Part shown: piece by piece, positions 4,902 through 22,600 of the stretch
Layout: each line of letters starts with the position of its first letter
Position numbering within the stretch: the stretch's first letter is position 1
Virus record (IMG/VR): IMGVR_UViG_3300042542_003300
Span: 1 to 35,209 of that record
From: a virus
Strand: one strand, 5' to 3'
Length of the DNA: 35,209 nucleotides
The notes under the pieces: generated by a model
What the model was told of the DNA's origin: nothing
Seen by the model: the letters and a program-made list of their open reading frames with translations, nothing else
The model's database searches: none
Position numbers and translations under genes: made by a program

Positions 4902-5809
4902 CAGAAGCTGACCTCCATGTTTTCCAGTTCCTTGGTCCGCGCCTCGGCTTTCTTGAGTTTGTTTTCCATGCGCTTGGTCGCGGCCATCGCCTCGTCGCGC
5001 GCGAACTTGGCGGCGCGGAGTTGGCCTTGCAGATTGCCGATCGTCTTGCCCTGGTCGCCGACCAGAGCCTCGGCCAGCTTGGCGGCCATGTCGTCGCGCT
5101 CGGCCTTGTAGCGAGCCGCCCTAGCCTTTTGGTCCGCCAGGTCGGCGCGCAGTCCGATGATCTCGTCGATCATGGCCTCGGTGTTCATCTTGGCGATCTG
5201 GCGACGAACGGGGTCCACGGGTTCGGGCGGCGTCGTGGAAGCTGTCGGGGCCTCCTGCGTCGCCCGCTCGCGCTTTACGGCGGCAACCGGCTTGCCCGCT
5301 TCGATGGCCGCTTGAAGCTCGGGATCGGCCTCGATTTCCTGCGCAAACTTGGCCGCGCGGCGCACCGTGGCTTCGGATACGCCATGCTCTTTTGCGAGGG
5401 TGTCGGCGGTCTTCTCGCCCGAGTGGTCATTTTGACCACTCGGGGCGTTCTGGACCAGATTGGCCGCTGGGTCCGCCTTCAGACGGTTATACCGGCGCCC
5501 CAACAGCAGCTTGCGAGCGTCGGGCGTCAGGTTGCGGCGGCCAAGCTGGTGGCAGTCCATCCAGTCAAGCGCGGCCTCGCGGGTCGGAAACTGCTTCTGG
5601 ACCGTCTGAAACGGGATGCCCAGGCGCGTGCAGATGTCGAACCGGTTGTGACCGTCGATGATGACCCGGCCCCAAAGGGTCAACGGATCGCGGCAACCGT
5701 CCTCGACAAGGTTGGCCTCTAGCTGCGCCAACTCCTCGACCGACAGGGCCGGGATATACTTGCGGAATTCGGGGTCGATGATGATGTCAGTCATGGTTTC
5801 ACTGGTCAT
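4901..5809 (-). CDS. ParB/Srx-like N-terminal domain protein
   Basis: 302 aa from ATG 5809; an ATG at 5794 is an alternative, and neither has a strong Shine-Dalgarno. The N-terminal ParB/sulfiredoxin-type domain spans about residues 8-90 with the signature VIIDGHNRFDIC (DGHNR at 53-57). A helix-turn-helix follows (TLAKEHGVSEATVRRAAKF, about 137-155). The C-terminal 90 residues are a charged coiled coil ending ELENMEVSF. In plasmids this fold binds centromere sites; in phages it is often a lone DNA-binding or nuclease-like protein. No ParA ATPase is present, so a partition role is unlikely. Position before the helicase and primase suggests replication or regulation. Confidence 0.8.
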   Translation of the reverse strand: MTSETMTDIIIDPEFRKYIPALSVEELAQLEANLVEDGCRDPLTLWGRVIIDGHNRFDICTRLGIPFQTVQKQFPTREAALDWMDCHQLGRRNLTPDARKLLLGRRYNRLKADPAANLVQNAPSGQNDHSGEKTADTLAKEHGVSEATVRRAAKFAQEIEADPELQAAIEAGKPVAAVKRERATQEAPTASTTPPEPVDPVRRQIAKMNTEAMIDEIIGLRADLADQKARAARYKAERDDMAAKLAEALVGDQGKTIGNLQGQLRAAKFARDEAMAATKRMENKLKKAEARTKELENMEVSF

Positions 5810-11613: not shown

Positions 11614-11791
11614 CCCGTCAGAAACGGCCCGCTTTACAGCCGCTGTCCATCGTCGAGAGGCGGAGGTTCGCCGGGCGTCTGAATACGCTCACCAGCGGGC
11701 GTTTGCCGATGTTCTGGACGCATGGGCTGCCGACGCCGAACACCGCGCCACAGAGGCCGAGAGAGGCCAGCAGGGGGAGTTGTTCGCATGA
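11603..11791 (+). CDS. Hypothetical protein
   Basis: 62 aa, almost entirely one charged helix (ARFTAAVHRREAEVRRASEY, AFADVLDAWAADAEHRATEA) ending GQQGELFA. Possibly a small coiled-coil partner protein. Not recognised. Overlaps the genes on both sides. Confidence 0.62.
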   Translation: MAFSPSETARFTAAVHRREAEVRRASEYAHQRAFADVLDAWAADAEHRATEAERGQQGELFA

Positions 11792-12048
11792 GGATGAGCC
11801 CTCGCCTGCTCGATCTGGCGTCCGCCGCTGCCTACCTGTCGCTCCCGCTCGCTGCGGTGCGCCGGCTGGCCGCTGGCCGCGTCCTGATTGACGGGCGGGC
11901 GCGTTGGGATCGGGTCGCGCTCGACGCATGGCTTGACGAGCAGCGGGGCGTTCGCGTTCAGTCACCGGCCAACGAAAACCCCAGCCCTGCGGATGCCGCC
12001 CTTGCCCGCTTCCTTGCGACCGCGCGACATGCTCCCCGGCGTTCATAG
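11788..12048 (+). CDS. xis: Excisionase candidate (winged HTH)
   Basis: 86 aa. N-terminal MerR/Xis-like DNA-binding domain: RLLDLASAAAYLSLPLAAVR (helix-turn-helix, residues 6-25), then a wing with VLIDGRARWDRVALDAWLDE, the arrangement seen in helix-turn-helix excisionases. The rest is a flexible tail. It overlaps the previous stop (ATGA) and runs 20 bases into the integrase gene, the typical xis-int order. Would bend attP/attR DNA to direct excision. Sequence of small Xis proteins is poorly conserved, so the call rests on fold pattern and position. Confidence 0.7.
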   Translation: MRMSPRLLDLASAAAYLSLPLAAVRRLAAGRVLIDGRARWDRVALDAWLDEQRGVRVQSPANENPSPADAALARFLATARHAPRRS

Positions 12049-13102
12049 GGTTCGAGCCAGGGCGACCGGCGGCAAGCTGGCCGAGTATTGGTATGCATGG
12101 CGGGGCGGGCCGCGCATCCTTAAAGCCGTGGCCGCTGGGGAGACCGCCCTAGCCCGCGAGATAGCCCGCCAGCTATCAGCCGCGACCGCAGCCTATCAGG
12201 AGGCCGTGCGCCCGGCTCGCGCTGACGCCTTCCTGTCGGGCCTGATCACCCAATACCTGACCGGCGAGGACGGCAAGCCGCCGCCCCATCTGGCCAAGCT
12301 CGCCGCGCGGACGCAGCGGGATATCCGCCTTGCGCTGGACGTGGTTCGCATCGACCTGGGCGAAATGGAGCTGGACGCGCTCAAAGCCAAAGGCGCCCGC
12401 CGCGCGCTTCTGGACTGGCGAGACCGCTACGCATCGACGCCGCGCACCGCTGACGCCCGCATGGAAGCCCTAGCCCGCGTCCTGTCATGGGCGGTCGAGT
12501 GCGATCTGATCGAAGCGAACCCGCTGAAAGAGTGGCCCCGCCTCTACAGCGTCAACCGGGCGGATGCGATCTGGACGAAAGCGGATTTGGTCAAGCTGTT
12601 GAAGGGAGCCCCGGCGCCGTTCCGCACCGCGATCCTGTTCGCAATCCTGACCGGCCTTCGCGGGGGCGATCTGGTCAAGATCACATGGCCCCAGGTCGGG
12701 AACGACGGCATCCGGTTACGCACGTCCAAAAGCGGGGGGAAGCGATCCGCCGTCATTCCCCTGACCCGGAAGCTGCGTGCGCTGTTGAACAAGATTGGAC
12801 GCCGCGACGTCGGAACCGTCCTCGTCAGCGCCACCGGCAAGCCTTGGACGCTGGGCGGGCTAAAGACTGCAATTCAGCGAGAGAAGACCGCCAAGGGCAT
12901 CACCGGCCTGCGGTTCCACGACCTACGCGGAACAGCGGCGACGAACTTTATACGCGAGGGGTTGCCGGTCGCGGACGTGGCGATGATCTTGGGATGGGAT
13001 CAACAGCGCACCGCCGCGCTGGCAAGCTATGTCACCGCCGACGCTGTTGCAGCGGGCATGCTGAAACGGCTAGAGAGGAACAGATCGGGGACGGGTTTGT
13101 AA
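12029..13102 (+). CDS. int: Tyrosine-recombinase integrase
   Basis: 357 aa from ATG 12029 (MLPGVHRVRARATGG); a longer frame from 11888 overlaps xis in another phase and is rejected. N-terminal arm-binding region (residues 5-35) and core-binding domain (65-165, LITQYLTG, TPRTADARMEALARVLSWAV) precede the catalytic domain. Active-site set is complete: R211 (TGLRGGD), K235 (TSKSGG), H297 and R300 (RFHDLRG), W323 (LGW, in place of the second His) and the nucleophile Y334 (ASYV). It catalyses attP x attB integration and, with Xis, excision. The stop codon overlaps the first arm-type repeat, and attP lies just downstream. Confidence 0.95.
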   Translation: MLPGVHRVRARATGGKLAEYWYAWRGGPRILKAVAAGETALAREIARQLSAATAAYQEAVRPARADAFLSGLITQYLTGEDGKPPPHLAKLAARTQRDIRLALDVVRIDLGEMELDALKAKGARRALLDWRDRYASTPRTADARMEALARVLSWAVECDLIEANPLKEWPRLYSVNRADAIWTKADLVKLLKGAPAPFRTAILFAILTGLRGGDLVKITWPQVGNDGIRLRTSKSGGKRSAVIPLTRKLRALLNKIGRRDVGTVLVSATGKPWTLGGLKTAIQREKTAKGITGLRFHDLRGTAATNFIREGLPVADVAMILGWDQQRTAALASYVTADAVAAGMLKRLERNRSGTGL

Positions 13103-13315
13103 AAGATCGGACGGGGCCTGTAAAAATGCCCGGTCAACGATCTAGCAGCGAGCGCGGAAAACCCTTACAGCGCAAGCGATTGCCGGCTTAGCTCAGATGG
13201 TAGAGCAGCGGTTTTGTAATCGGGCAAACAGCCCCGAAAAATCAATGCACCGGGTGTAAAAGATCGGGCCATCTGCCGTCGATCCGTAAAGGGTTGCGGG
13301 GGTCTGTGTAAAAGG
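13083..13315. other. attP region with arm-type repeats
   Basis: Core: 5' half of a tRNA-Thr gene (13182-13219). On both sides are copies of a TGTAAAA motif in one orientation: TGTAAAAGATCGG at 13098-13110 and again exactly at 13255-13267, TGTAAAAA at 13119-13126, and TGTAAAAGG at 13307-13315. The left pair also forms an imperfect tandem repeat of about 21 bp (13083-13104, 13105-13125). Arm repeats flanking a tRNA-derived core immediately after int are the hallmark of a lambda-type attP. Confidence 0.85.
13182..13219 (+). pseudogene. 5' half of tRNA-Thr(UGU), attP core
   Basis: 38 bases fold as the 5' half of a tRNA: acceptor strand GCCGGCT, TA, D-stem GCTC/GAGC with loop AGATGGTA, A26, anticodon 5' stem GCGGT and loop TTTGTAA with anticodon TGT at 13215-13217. 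After the loop the sequence departs (TCGGGC instead of an ACCGC pairing strand), and no T-arm or CCA end follows. Not a functional tRNA alone; it is the segment shared with the host attB. Confidence 0.85.
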
Positions 13316-13333
13316 CCGCAGCCCTTAAGGCCG

Positions 13334-13618
13334 TCACTTCCACAGCTTCCACCATGGCCGGGGATCAACCGTCTGCCGGTGAGCATCCACGATAGCCACG
13401 GCTGCGGCTCTACGGCCATCGCACACGGTCAACGCGGCCTCTTGGCGTAGGGCCAGCGCCCCGAGATCGCCAACGGTCTCCAAAGGGCCGACGTCGGCCC
13501 TAGGGCAGGCTTCCCGCAGGATCGGCGGGACGTTGATCGTCAGGGGCCGGGGCGTGCCCGCGCATGACGCCAATAGACCCGCGCAGAGCATCAGTAAAGG
13601 CGGGATCAAGGCGCGCAT
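13334..13618 (-). CDS. Rz1-like outer-membrane lipoprotein spanin
   Basis: 94 aa from ATG 13618 (MRALIPPLLMLCAGLLASCAG). A lipoprotein signal peptide ends in the lipobox L-A-S-C with Cys19 as the modified residue. The mature part is soluble (TPRPLTINVPPILREACPRA, then an Ala/Val helix). Its first 119 bases lie inside the Rz-like gene in another frame, the nested arrangement typical of Rz/Rz1 spanin pairs. It would sit in the outer membrane and join Rz to fuse the membranes in the last lysis step. A longer frame to 13678 lacks the signal peptide at its start. Last gene of the late operon, facing attP. Confidence 0.82.
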   Translation of the reverse strand: MRALIPPLLMLCAGLLASCAGTPRPLTINVPPILREACPRADVGPLETVGDLGALALRQEAALTVCDGRRAAAVAIVDAHRQTVDPRPWWKLWK

Positions 13619-13859
13619 CCGCCCCCGGTGCTGACTGGACAACATCGACTTGCCTTTCTGCTTCCTGCCTGACGACAACTTCCGTGCGAACCGTCCGTTC
13701 GATTATGCCCGTGGTCTGTTCGGCGAGGGCTTGGCCCTGTTCGGCGACGACGGCGCGGGCCTTGGCATCCTTGGCCGCTCGCTGCTGAAACCAGCCGACG
13801 GCCAGCAGCAGGGCCAGCGCGAGGGTAGCAAGGGCGGCGATGATCGCGCGGGCGTTCAT
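13500..13859 (-). CDS. Rz-like inner-membrane spanin
   Basis: 119 aa. N-terminal membrane anchor IIAALATLALALLLAVGWF (residues 6-24), then a periplasmic coiled coil (QQRAAKDAKARAVVAEQGQA, IIERTVRTEVVVRQEAERQV). This is the topology of i-spanins such as lambda Rz. The ATG overlaps the endolysin stop (ATGA), and the Rz1-like gene starts inside it. Family sequence is not conserved; the call rests on topology, order and nesting. Confidence 0.82.
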   Translation of the reverse strand: MNARAIIAALATLALALLLAVGWFQQRAAKDAKARAVVAEQGQALAEQTTGIIERTVRTEVVVRQEAERQVDVVQSAPGADARLDPAFTDALRGSIGVMRGHAPAPDDQRPADPAGSLP

Positions 13860-14470
13860 CCCCAGCCCCCCGCCGTCAGCGCCGCGAGGTAGTGCCCCGC
13901 CTCCGCAGCGATCTCCTCGGCATGATCCCGACCATTAATGATCCGCCGGGCGTTCACGAAGTCGGTTTTCTCGGCGGTAATGTAGTGGCGCAGGGATCGT
14001 CCAGTGAACCAGCCTTCGGCCATGCCCCGCACCATGATCGCGGCGGCAATGTCGGAGCGCATGGCAAGGTCAGGGTTGCCGACTAGCGGGTAGCCGAGCG
14101 CGTCGCCCGCCTTCGCGTAATTGGCCTTCCACGTCAGCTGGACGTAGCCCCGACCGCAGTAGCGCACGCCGTCGCCGGGAATCGTGTTGCCCATCTTGCG
14201 AGCGCGAGCCGGATCGCGTCCACTGACGTCATACATGCGCGTGAAATAGGACGGCCCGCCCCATTCCTTGATCGGCTGCATCGTCCCGCCGGTTTCCCGG
14301 TCTGCCGTGGCCAGCGCGTAGGCGGTCCACTTGGGGCCCCATCCCGCCGCGCCGCACGCCGCCAGGATCGCGTTGACGCCATCGACCTCAGATTGGTCAA
14401 GAGACGAGCCGAGTAGGTTTGCGGCCTTGACGGAGGCGAAGAACGCCGCGCCGTTGCCCAGCTTGGTCAT
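13856..14470 (-). CDS. GH19-type endolysin
   Basis: 204 aa. Glycoside hydrolase family 19 lysozyme-like muramidase/chitinase fold: ALATADRETGGTMQPIKEWG (catalytic Glu in RETGG), then YCGRGYVQLTWKANYAKAGD, the family signature, and FVNARRIINGRD near the C-terminus. Cleaves peptidoglycan at host lysis. No signal peptide, so export needs a holin. Ribosome site AAGGA lies 6 bases before the ATG. Followed by the overlapping Rz/Rz1 genes, forming a canonical lysis end to the late operon. Confidence 0.92.
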   Translation of the reverse strand: MTKLGNGAAFFASVKAANLLGSSLDQSEVDGVNAILAACGAAGWGPKWTAYALATADRETGGTMQPIKEWGGPSYFTRMYDVSGRDPARARKMGNTIPGDGVRYCGRGYVQLTWKANYAKAGDALGYPLVGNPDLAMRSDIAAAIMVRGMAEGWFTGRSLRHYITAEKTDFVNARRIINGRDHAEEIAAEAGHYLAALTAGGWG

Positions 14471-19449: not shown

Positions 19450-20069
19450 CAGTTGCCATCCAGAATAAAGCCGGAGGGAAGTTTGGCGCCACTACCGCCA
19501 CTACCACCGCGACCACCGCTGACACGCGGGGGGGCGAAAACCTTGGGGGCGGCGCCAAAGTTAGCGACCTTCTTCCACTGGCCGTCGTCTTGCAGTTCGT
19601 AAATGCCGTCAGGCCCGCGCTCGCGGGGCCGCTCTACCGGCCCTGGCGCGGCCTCAAACGGCCCTTGGCTCCGCACCACCTCACCCGTGCGGGGGTCGGT
19701 GATATCGTAGGCGCCCCTGCCGCGATTGATGAATTGCAGTTGCGGCGCCTCTTGCGGCATCCCGTAGCTTCTCGCCCACGCCTCCTTCGAAACGTCGAAC
19801 AGCGCCTGTTGCTCCGGCGGCAGGTTGTCCCGGATCTGGCCAATGCGCTCTTGCTCGCCGCGCTCGGCAAACATCTTGCGGGCGGCGTCAAGGTTCCCCT
19901 GACCCCCGCCCATGTCCTGCAATCCAGCGCCGATGATGTACGCCTTGTCTTGCCACGAGCGTTTGGGCACGCGCTTGCCGCCGGACGGGTCCACACGCGG
20001 CGGAACGCCGGGGGCCTGCGGTTGATTTTGCTGCGGCATGAAGCCCGACAGGATGTTTCTTAAGTTCAT
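19449..20069 (-). CDS. Probable virion-associated protein
   Basis: 206 aa from ATG 20069, overlapping the stop of the 843-aa gene (TGATG). N-terminus is Gln/Pro-rich (FMPQQNQPQAPGVPPRV); the middle helical (YIIGAGLQDMGGGQGNLDAA, RKMFAERGEQERIGQIRDNL). Two short beta modules follow (GAYDITDPRTGEVVRSQG and GIYELQDDGQWKKVA), with a Gly/Ser-rich end. Not recognised. Order in the operon suggests an internal or ejection protein. Confidence 0.65.
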   Translation of the reverse strand: MNLRNILSGFMPQQNQPQAPGVPPRVDPSGGKRVPKRSWQDKAYIIGAGLQDMGGGQGNLDAARKMFAERGEQERIGQIRDNLPPEQQALFDVSKEAWARSYGMPQEAPQLQFINRGRGAYDITDPRTGEVVRSQGPFEAAPGPVERPRERGPDGIYELQDDGQWKKVANFGAAPKVFAPPRVSGGRGGSGGSGAKLPSGFILDGN

Positions 20070-22600
20070 CACAGCGCCCCGTAATTGACCGTGAGATAAC
20101 CGGACGGATGCACGCTCACGGCCCCGGTGTGCATGACCTCTTGCGCCATCACGCCCTCCCGAACCGTGCCGGGCTCATCCCAGACGTAGCGGTAGCGATA
20201 CCAGTTGTGTTCGCCGCGCTTGCCGATGGGCTGGATGTCGGTTTTGACCCGAATGTCAGACGCCGCGACCATCGCAGCGGTTTGCAGCGCCTGCCCAATG
20301 ATCTGGGCCGGAGCCTGCGAATTGACCTGCGTCCCTTGGGTTGAGGCCCCCGCGTACAGCGCCGGAATGGTGCCCAGCAGCCCTTGCGTCTGTGCAATCT
20401 GGTTCTGGCCGTACTGCTGTTGCAACAGGTATTGCTGATACAGCCGGTCAAGGCTGGCCTGATCAAGCTGTTGAGCCTGCGAGCCGAAGGCGTTCAGCGC
20501 GTTGACCGCGTTCAGGTTCATGCCCTGCTGTTGCTGGCCGATGTTGCCGAGCAAGCCCGCCGCCTGGAGGTTCTGCGAGTTGTTTTGCAGGAAGTTGTTT
20601 GCGTTGGCGAGCGCCGCCTGTTGTGCAAGCGTGGCGTTGGCATTGGCCGCCGTGTTGCGCGCATCCGCCCCGAACCGGGCCGCGTCCGCCATCTGACCGG
20701 CGTTGAACTGCCCGGCGCTCTGCAACAGCCCGGCGTTGAACTCCTGCCGGGAATTGGCCGCCGCAGCGTTCTGGCCAGCCGCTTGATTGAACGCCCCGGC
20801 CCCGAACTCCGCCGCACGGTTGCCCGCCGACAGGTTGGCCATCGCCATGTCCTGACCAAGCCCGGCGTTGAACTGATCGCGCGCGTTCAGGGCGGATTGA
20901 TTGGCAAGGCTTGCGGTGTTTTGAGCGCCCGCGCCGAATTGCGCCGCCTGGTTGCTGGCGTCCATGTTGGCGAGGCCAAGCTGTTGCAACAGACCGGCGT
21001 TGAACTGGTTTCCGCTGTTGATCGCGCCCTGATTGGCGAGGCCAGCCTGTTGCGCCAGTCCGGTGTTGAACTCGTCGCGGCTGTTCAAAGCGTTTTGATT
21101 GGCAAGGCCCGATTGTTGCAACAGGCCAGCGTTAAACTGCCCTTGATTGTTCATCGCCGATTGATTGGCGAGACCCGCCGTGTTCTGCGCCCCGGCTCCG
21201 AACTGCGCCGCCTGATTGAACGCCCCCGCCCCAAACTCAGCGGCCCGGTTTCCGGCATCCGCGCGGAACTGCCCCGCCGTGTTAGCCGCGCCCTGATTAG
21301 CCAGCCCAGCCTGTTGCAGAAGACCGGCGTTGAATTGGTTTTGGTTGTTGAGCGCCGCTTGATTGGCAAGGCCGAACTGCCCGCTAAGGCCCGCGTTAAA
21401 CTCCTCGCGGCTGTTGGCGGCGCCCTGATTGGCCAGCCCAGCCTGTTGCGTAAGGCCCGCATCAAACTGCCGTTGGCTGTTCAGAGCGTTTTGATTGGCG
21501 AGGTTGGCCTGTTGCGCGAACCCGGCGTTCTGCCCCGCAATGGACATGTCAGCGCCCTGGTTCGCCATGCCCGCTTGCAGACGGTTGCCAACATCTTGAC
21601 CCGACAGGCCCGCCGCCGTGTTGAACCCTTGCGCCCGCATCGCAGCCGACAGGTTGCCGCTTTCGCGCAGAAACGCCTCGTTCGTCAGGCTATCGGCGAC
21701 GCCTTGCCGAGATCCGCCAAACGCCCCGGCCTGGGTAAAGCCGCCAGCGGCGTTGTTGATCGACCGCTGACGTTGCAGGTTCAGATCGCTCAGCGAGTTT
21801 TGAACGACTTGATCTTCAAAGGGGTTTCGATACAGCCCCATTCCCGAGGCGATAGTATCGGCGTCAACGTTCCGCACGGCGCCACGGTTGACGCTTGCGG
21901 CCTGCGCCATTTCCGCCGGGCCAGCCTGCGCGGCGTTCATCATGTAGGCATTGCCAGCGGTCGGAGCCGTGCCAAGCGCAGCAGGGCCAGCCGAAGCCGC
22001 CCCCGTCATTGCCGGATTATAGCCCTGCGACTGATAGCCTTGCGACTGATAGCCTTGCGCGTTGGCCAGCATTGCCGGTCCAGCCGACGCGGCGTTGGAC
22101 ATGGCCGCAGGGCCAGCTTGCGCGCCGTTCATCAGGGCGGTTTGCGCGGTCGGCGCCTGGCCCATCTGCGTGGCCTGGTAGCCTTGGCCCATCGCCATAG
22201 CAGCAGGCCCGGCCTGCACCGACTGCCCCGTGATCGGCTGATAGCCTTGCGCCGTGACGTTGTTGGTTTGCCCGGCGTTGGCCGCTTGCATCGGCCTGAA
22301 CCGGTAGCCTTGCGCTTGCGTGGCCGCAGGCGTGACCACCGGGGCCTGAGACCCCATCAGCCCGTAAGCGCCACGCGCCGCCGCGTTGGTCGCGCGCTGT
22401 CCCGCGTTGACGTTCAGCAGGCCCCGCGCCGCTTGTTGGTCCGCGTTCATGGGCGCCGAAAGCTGCCCCTCATACGGGGTAAACGGCCTGTTGATCAGCC
22501 CCTGCATGTTGTTGAACGCAGGGTTAAACAGCGCCGCCGTTTGCGGGTTCGAGGCCGTCGTAGACGTCGTCTTCGTCTTCGACTTGAACAGATTGCTCAT
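20069..22600 (-). CDS. 843-aa repeat virion protein with C-terminal S74-like chaperone
   Basis: N-terminal region (1-117) leads into an Ala/Gly/Gln section (118-240) with recurring QAGPAAM and GYQ motifs. Residues about 344-630 are a precise 22-residue repeat: GLANQxAxNxxxQFNAGLLQQ-like, Leu at 367, 389, 411, 433, 477, 499, 521, 543, 565 and Phe at 379, 401, 423, 445, 467, 489, 511. Twenty-two equals two hendecads, the period of right-handed coiled coils. The end (781-843) SDIRVKTDIQPIG through EGVMAQEVMHTGAVSVHPSG resembles the intramolecular chaperone (peptidase S74) domain, which trimerises fibres and cleaves itself. Probably a long fibrous tail, needle or ejection component. Composition is unlike neighbours. 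Confidence 0.8.
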   Translation of the reverse strand: MSNLFKSKTKTTSTTASNPQTAALFNPAFNNMQGLINRPFTPYEGQLSAPMNADQQAARGLLNVNAGQRATNAAARGAYGLMGSQAPVVTPAATQAQGYRFRPMQAANAGQTNNVTAQGYQPITGQSVQAGPAAMAMGQGYQATQMGQAPTAQTALMNGAQAGPAAMSNAASAGPAMLANAQGYQSQGYQSQGYNPAMTGAASAGPAALGTAPTAGNAYMMNAAQAGPAEMAQAASVNRGAVRNVDADTIASGMGLYRNPFEDQVVQNSLSDLNLQRQRSINNAAGGFTQAGAFGGSRQGVADSLTNEAFLRESGNLSAAMRAQGFNTAAGLSGQDVGNRLQAGMANQGADMSIAGQNAGFAQQANLANQNALNSQRQFDAGLTQQAGLANQGAANSREEFNAGLSGQFGLANQAALNNQNQFNAGLLQQAGLANQGAANTAGQFRADAGNRAAEFGAGAFNQAAQFGAGAQNTAGLANQSAMNNQGQFNAGLLQQSGLANQNALNSRDEFNTGLAQQAGLANQGAINSGNQFNAGLLQQLGLANMDASNQAAQFGAGAQNTASLANQSALNARDQFNAGLGQDMAMANLSAGNRAAEFGAGAFNQAAGQNAAAANSRQEFNAGLLQSAGQFNAGQMADAARFGADARNTAANANATLAQQAALANANNFLQNNSQNLQAAGLLGNIGQQQQGMNLNAVNALNAFGSQAQQLDQASLDRLYQQYLLQQQYGQNQIAQTQGLLGTIPALYAGASTQGTQVNSQAPAQIIGQALQTAAMVAASDIRVKTDIQPIGKRGEHNWYRYRYVWDEPGTVREGVMAQEVMHTGAVSVHPSGYLTVNYGAL
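20590..21571 (-). repeat. 66-bp tandem coding repeats
   Basis: About 13 imperfect units of 66 bp, each encoding one 22-residue repeat of the 843-aa protein. Recurrent DNA words on the plus strand include TGATTGGCAAGGC and GCGTTGAACTG. Unit length is kept exactly in frame throughout. Confidence 0.85.

Follow-up and report, generated by a model that had tools for sequence, protein, structure and literature searches.

A tRNA-Thr(UGU) 5' half in a phage attP and the probable transcription of the restored tRNA gene from phage DNA behind the integrase

What becomes of a host tRNA gene when the phage that integrates into it brings the 5' half of that gene? This question is raised by a stretch of viral DNA of 35,209 nucleotides (IMG/VR record IMGVR_UViG_3300042542_003300), hereafter referred to as the window, in which an integrase gene (int) is followed by the first half of a tRNA-Thr(UGU). 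Our analysis indicates that this region is very probably the attP of a temperate phage with a P22-type portal, that its integrase probably recombines within the anticodon loop of tRNA-Thr(UGU), and that the restored tRNA would lie behind int and be transcribed from phage DNA. In a lysogen, the mended tRNA-Thr gene would no longer adjoin its own promoter but would follow the phage int, an arrangement that is rare in bacteria.

The integrase module of the window

The window appears to be a whole phage genome, as it starts and ends with the same 127 bases; hence, the mid-window place of int reflects only the point at which the circle was opened. A P22-type portal, a coat protein and a terminase are all encoded in it. 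The 357-aa tyrosine integrase (12029..13102, plus strand) was recognized by PF00589 (E = 1.5e-17) and by the PHROG 1 integrase profile (E = 4e-34). In an alignment with 12 relatives, R211, K234, R300 and Y334 were invariant and H297 nearly so, and the protein displays the catalytic set of the tyrosine recombinase family (R, K, H-x-x-R, W/H and Y). Directly upstream, a small gene that overlaps the int start (11788..12048, plus strand) likely encodes an excisionase (RDF), with a weak match to PHROG 66 'excisionase' (E = 2.5e-5).

Positions 12610-13330 of the window were compared with two further IMG/VR contigs, L007 and L008. Here, int was identical over approximately 480 nt save for a single difference close to its end, but the att flanks diverged sharply. 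Near-identical int ends beside such divergent flanks suggest that the int module was exchanged recently and that the breakpoint lay close to the stop codon of int.

Two side observations concern gene content. An 843-aa protein that adjoins the structural genes (20069-22600, minus strand) consists largely of FNAGLLQQAGLANQGAANT-type repeats and is possibly a virion or ejection protein. In Mesorhizobium phage P1, a spore photoproduct lyase is annotated near int (L014 1-1132).

The attP core is the 5' half of tRNA-Thr(UGU)

The core starts 79 nt past the int stop codon, occupies 13182..13219 on the plus strand and reads GCCGGCTTAGCTCAGATGGTAGAGCAGCGGTTTTGTAA. It corresponds to nt 1-38 of tRNA-Thr(UGU), starting at mature tRNA base 1 and covering the acceptor strand, the D arm, the 5' strand of the anticodon stem and the anticodon loop. 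An earlier, sequence-only reading of this DNA had described a perfect 5' tRNA half through the anticodon loop, followed by unrelated sequence and with the 3' half absent, and our results agree with it on both counts. TCGGG, right after the core, is unable to pair with the stem strand GCGGT, so that the anticodon stem stays open, and ARAGORN found no tRNA gene in the whole window, in which neither a tRNA 3' half nor an intact tRNA is present. When the 38 nt were joined in silico to the tRNA-Thr 3' half from another locus (L084), ARAGORN called a tRNA-Thr(tgt), whereas attP alone gave no call. A chance origin of the 38-nt match was computed to be negligible; a search of attP against Rfam gave no match.

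The core runs from the tRNA end to the anticodon loop, which points to an anticodon-loop tRNA-targeting integrase. The loop itself, TTTGTAA with the anticodon TGT (13213..13219, plus strand), is the presumed 7-bp crossover overlap, as shared identity in relatives ends at or just past it. It would be flanked on the int-proximal side by the half-site GCGGT, i.e., the 5' anticodon stem (13208..13212, plus strand), whose CGGT recurs beside the overlap of the 3'-half relatives L028, L029, L031 and L084, there on the other strand of the tRNA. The putative int-distal half-site, TCGGGC (13220..13225, plus strand), is phage-specific; in the window group and L023, its first base varies (T/G/A) and is followed by CGGG.

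The same 38 nt are unchanged in three further IMG/VR contigs (L003, L007 and L008), but the neighboring bases are not: L003 has a different base immediately 5' of the core, as do L007 and L008 immediately 3' of it. A comparison of the window with L007 shows approximately 10 differences in the 79-base arm and none in the 38-base core, while the distal arm differs at approximately 30% of positions. Conservation in this att region stands out only in the core and in TGTAAAA repeats, and the core is, on this comparison, under selection.

The TGTAAAA repeats (all on the plus strand) have approximate offsets of -84, -63, +73 and +125 from the tRNA half. The first (13098..13104; family D1) overlaps the int stop codon and is conserved in relatives, and the second (13119..13125) is found at the same place in L003, L007 and L008, with counterparts in L023 and L024. 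The distal arm holds two more copies of family D1, one (13255..13261) at a nearly fixed offset in L007, L023 and L024 and the other (13307..13313) at a nearly fixed offset in relatives. In L023 and L024, whose integrases share 60% and 55% identity, respectively, with that of the window, the distal-side offsets are nearly the same and the int-side ones similar. Such an arrangement is that of integrase arm sites flanking a core, with the repeats as putative sites.

Next to the distal arm lie the ends of minus-strand genes (13334-14470) that, by reading, resemble spanin and endolysin genes; in the integrated phage, transcription from the orphaned host tRNA promoter would run into them antisense.

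A related lysogen displays the rearranged tRNA gene

Since int adjoins the 5' half, integration would complete this phage-borne half with the 3' half of the host gene, and the tRNA would be restored downstream of int and codirectional with it. The host promoter would remain at the opposite junction, together with a dead 5' fragment. Such a crossover at the anticodon loop, placing the tRNA behind int, had been proposed from the window alone; it is seen directly in L034 (45,762 bases), a lysogen contig with both junctions whose integrase is approximately 37% identical to that of the window. At one end of L034, a host CaiB-like reading frame is followed by TTGACC-N16-ACAGAA, the tRNA-Lys 5' half and then the phage arm. 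At the other end, int is followed by TAA, 20 bases, an intact tRNA-Lys(UUU) and a host ROK-like reading frame (both host genes were named by eye from the translated flanks). An attL/attR comparison of the kind that the earlier reading had put forward as a check was run on this related lysogen: the two sites are identical over a 41-nt core plus 1 base above tRNA nt 1, and the identity ends 2-3 nt past the loop. As the identity reaches no more than 1 nt beyond the tRNA start, the host upstream promoter is not duplicated and is left at the other junction.

Further contigs display parts of this layout. The host/5'-half junction of L124 is as in L034, L105 provides a second case of an int-to-intact-tRNA junction, and L118 and L039 represent the L034 type as free attP sites. 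In L122, host upstream DNA as in L034 (0 differences in 198 bases) is followed by an intact tRNA-Lys and then by a different element; thus, one host tRNA-Lys gene serves elements of both polarities. In both L122 and L123, the host promoter region of the tRNA-Lys is the same or similar, and an element of the ordinary layout comes after the tRNA.

Searches for a lysogen of the window's own integrase were negative: the scan of genome contigs gave only a Planctomycete relative (27%), the scan of viral contigs with the window 5' half and the L023 variant gave free attP sites only, and a DNA search of 50,697 phage records with the int-attP region gave no match. By its identical anatomy, a lysogen of the window phage would presumably have an L034-like layout.

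Both tRNA polarities occur among related integrases

Relatives were collected by a profile scan of viral contigs, which yielded 80 loci, and layouts were counted only where they were readable (forty-odd attP or junction regions). In the usual layout, found in 33 loci (phage and plasmid records included), a tRNA 3' half or an intact tRNA faces int. The rarer layout, in which a 5' half or an intact tRNA points the same way as int, was found for tRNA-Thr in the window group and L023/L024, for tRNA-Arg CCT in L026/L027, and for tRNA-Lys in L034, L105, L039, L049 and L118. A third layout was present in L058, which was left out of the counts; here, at approximately 5490-5620, a tRNA-Gly 3' half lies codirectional with int at a distance of approximately 500 nt.

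The nearest described phage integrases (26-39% identity), such as those of Paracoccus phage Psul1 and Rhizobium phages RHEph27 and N3_2, are homologous to that of the window and also have attP just past int, with the anticodon-loop end away from int; an exception is L015, with a tRNA 3' half approximately 570 nt from int. TGTAAAA arm repeats are present in several of these alphaproteobacterial phages, as in the window. Unlike in the window, however, their tRNA points to int and it is the 3' half, on the int-facing strand, that is carried, so that the host promoter keeps driving the gene. The phage records L017 and L021 annotate the attachment site in a tRNA.

In a tree of 92 integrases, the layout requires at least two changes. 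A single clade for all the 5' forms was rejected with a p-AU of 0.024, a value that is optimistic in that the group was defined after tree inspection. Both layouts occur within the window's own clade, in which L028, L029 and L031 carry a tRNA-Gln 3' half or face an intact tRNA-Gln. L031 had been a candidate for the 5' layout, with an intact tRNA-Pro after int, and was rejected, its attachment tRNA being the tRNA-Gln that faces int.

In the orientation of int, the window has AGCGGT (tRNA-Thr 5' stem) as the half-site next to the crossover, and L028, L029 and L031 have ACGGT (other strand, tRNA-Gln 3' stem). Because the anticodon stem is near-palindromic, the integrase would meet a similar half-site in either direction. 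A switch of tRNA polarity may thus be possible through this stem; whichever half is on the int side would have to come in full from the phage. The presence of both polarities side by side in one integrase family makes such switching testable.

Transcription of the restored tRNA

Expression of the restored tRNA would be phage-driven, the source being read-through from int or a promoter located in the int 3' end or directly beyond it. S. meliloti has one listed gene each for tRNA-Thr(UGU) and tRNA-Lys(UUU) (PMC11476347, Table 3), and continued expression of the restored copy is therefore likely essential; a second host tRNA reading the same codons, if present, would allow its silence to be tolerated. 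A prophage owning the promoter of a single-copy essential tRNA would become hard to lose by partial deletion, since the tRNA would fall silent once the int end decayed. In the interval from int to the tRNA half of the window, the promoter scan made no call and no plus-strand terminator was found. With no recognizable promoter in this interval, read-through from int would be the default route, but the rightward gene block ending in int may be silenced by a repressor in the lysogen.

Instead of read-through, the tRNA might have a promoter dedicated to it within the int 3' end that mimics the host tRNA promoter, a possibility that we do not favor but that has a real chance of being correct. In the L034 group, only approximately 20 bases separate int from the tRNA, and a promoter must therefore lie in int or further up. 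The motif TTGACC-N16-ACARAA, derived from two different host tRNA-Lys upstream regions (L122 and L123), occurs at one fixed place with 0-1 mismatch in 12 in all six int genes of this group; it lies 96 nt before the tRNA in L034, L105 and L118, and the next best match in those loci has 3 mismatches. A scan of 79 other int ends gave a single match with at most one mismatch, inside a tRNA (L084). At the motif, the codons GCC-CTT-GAC and CAG-AAA are invariant in 6/6 genes (Fisher p 0.02 without the arm codons), and random DNA is estimated to give the motif in well under 1/100 cases. However, the motif was picked after being seen, and synonymous-codon shuffles recreate it in 2-17% of trials, so that the protein sequence accounts for much of it; moreover, it is absent from the window, where the best match has 5 mismatches. 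The copy of the host-promoter motif in the int 3' end of the L034 group is a lead and suggestive only. The broader proposal, in which this integrase family repeatedly flips orientation in tRNA genes and its 5'-half branches offset the lost host promoter by a copy inside the int end, driving an essential host tRNA from int, is tentative and, in our judgment, doubtful.

The sequence-only reading had pointed to a weak promoter among the arm repeats (TTGTAA at 13097-13102 and TAAAAA at 13121-13126, 18 bases apart), by which integrase binding might affect tRNA transcription. That this pair drives the tRNA and is occluded by integrase is improbable. Both hexamers are indeed present and kept in L007 and L008, with a permissible spacing, but they sit within two TGTAAAA repeats, which are also found on the distal arm, so that their conservation is explained by integrase binding. 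Further, they match only 8/12 consensus positions, were not called by the promoter scan, have counterparts of the same grade in approximately 23% of shuffles, and are altered in L023 and L024 while the arm repeats persist. With the promoter unsupported, the idea of control by integrase likewise lacks support.

Other readings of the site and comparison with known systems

The tRNA half might also be a relic or a chance transduced fragment, with attP elsewhere, in line with the lack of a lysogen of the window integrase in the scans of genome and viral contigs. We consider this very unlikely in view of the 38 nt invariant between diverging flanks, of the nearly fixed offsets of the arm repeats, and of a position that is that of attP in relatives, including the annotated tRNA attachment sites of L017 and L021. 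Hardly credible is a tRNA-dependent lysogeny, in which the phage supplies a whole tRNA from elsewhere and the host gene is not rebuilt: there is a precedent in mycobacteriophages (PMC10865867), where, as in our reading of the window, lysogen survival relies on phage DNA for an essential tRNA, but these phages carry a complete tRNA with its own promoter, whereas ARAGORN, which a very divergent tRNA could escape, finds no tRNA gene of the disrupted isotype or any other in this genome with terminal repeats, and the core spans 38 nt and reaches the gene end instead of being about 10 nt.

An attP with a tRNA 5' half, as we read it in the window, is of a kind already known, from archaeal pTN3-type integrases, from bacterial cases and from the Islander filters, which also allow for 5' fragments (PMC4383910). 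What is seen here is a branch in bacterial phages with int intact, an example of a lysogen, and close relatives of opposite polarity. Bacterial 5'-half integrations are 'seldomly encountered in bacteria', a statement cited to Williams 2002 (PMC8371274); they too leave the restored tRNA without its own promoter. For the pTN3-type integrases of Thermococcales, attB and attP share the tRNA 5' half up to the anticodon region (41 bp), and the rebuilt tRNA, apart from its original promoter, is said to use the integrase promoter (PMC5495485, PMC8371274). The window shares the 5' half in attP, and its rebuilt tRNA would likewise be parted from the host promoter, with the corresponding lysogen layout present in L034. 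In pTN3, however, attP lies inside int and the gene is split on integration (suicidal, as in the SSV type), whereas in the bacterial phage of the window attP lies after int, the 79 nt between stop codon and core leaving int whole.
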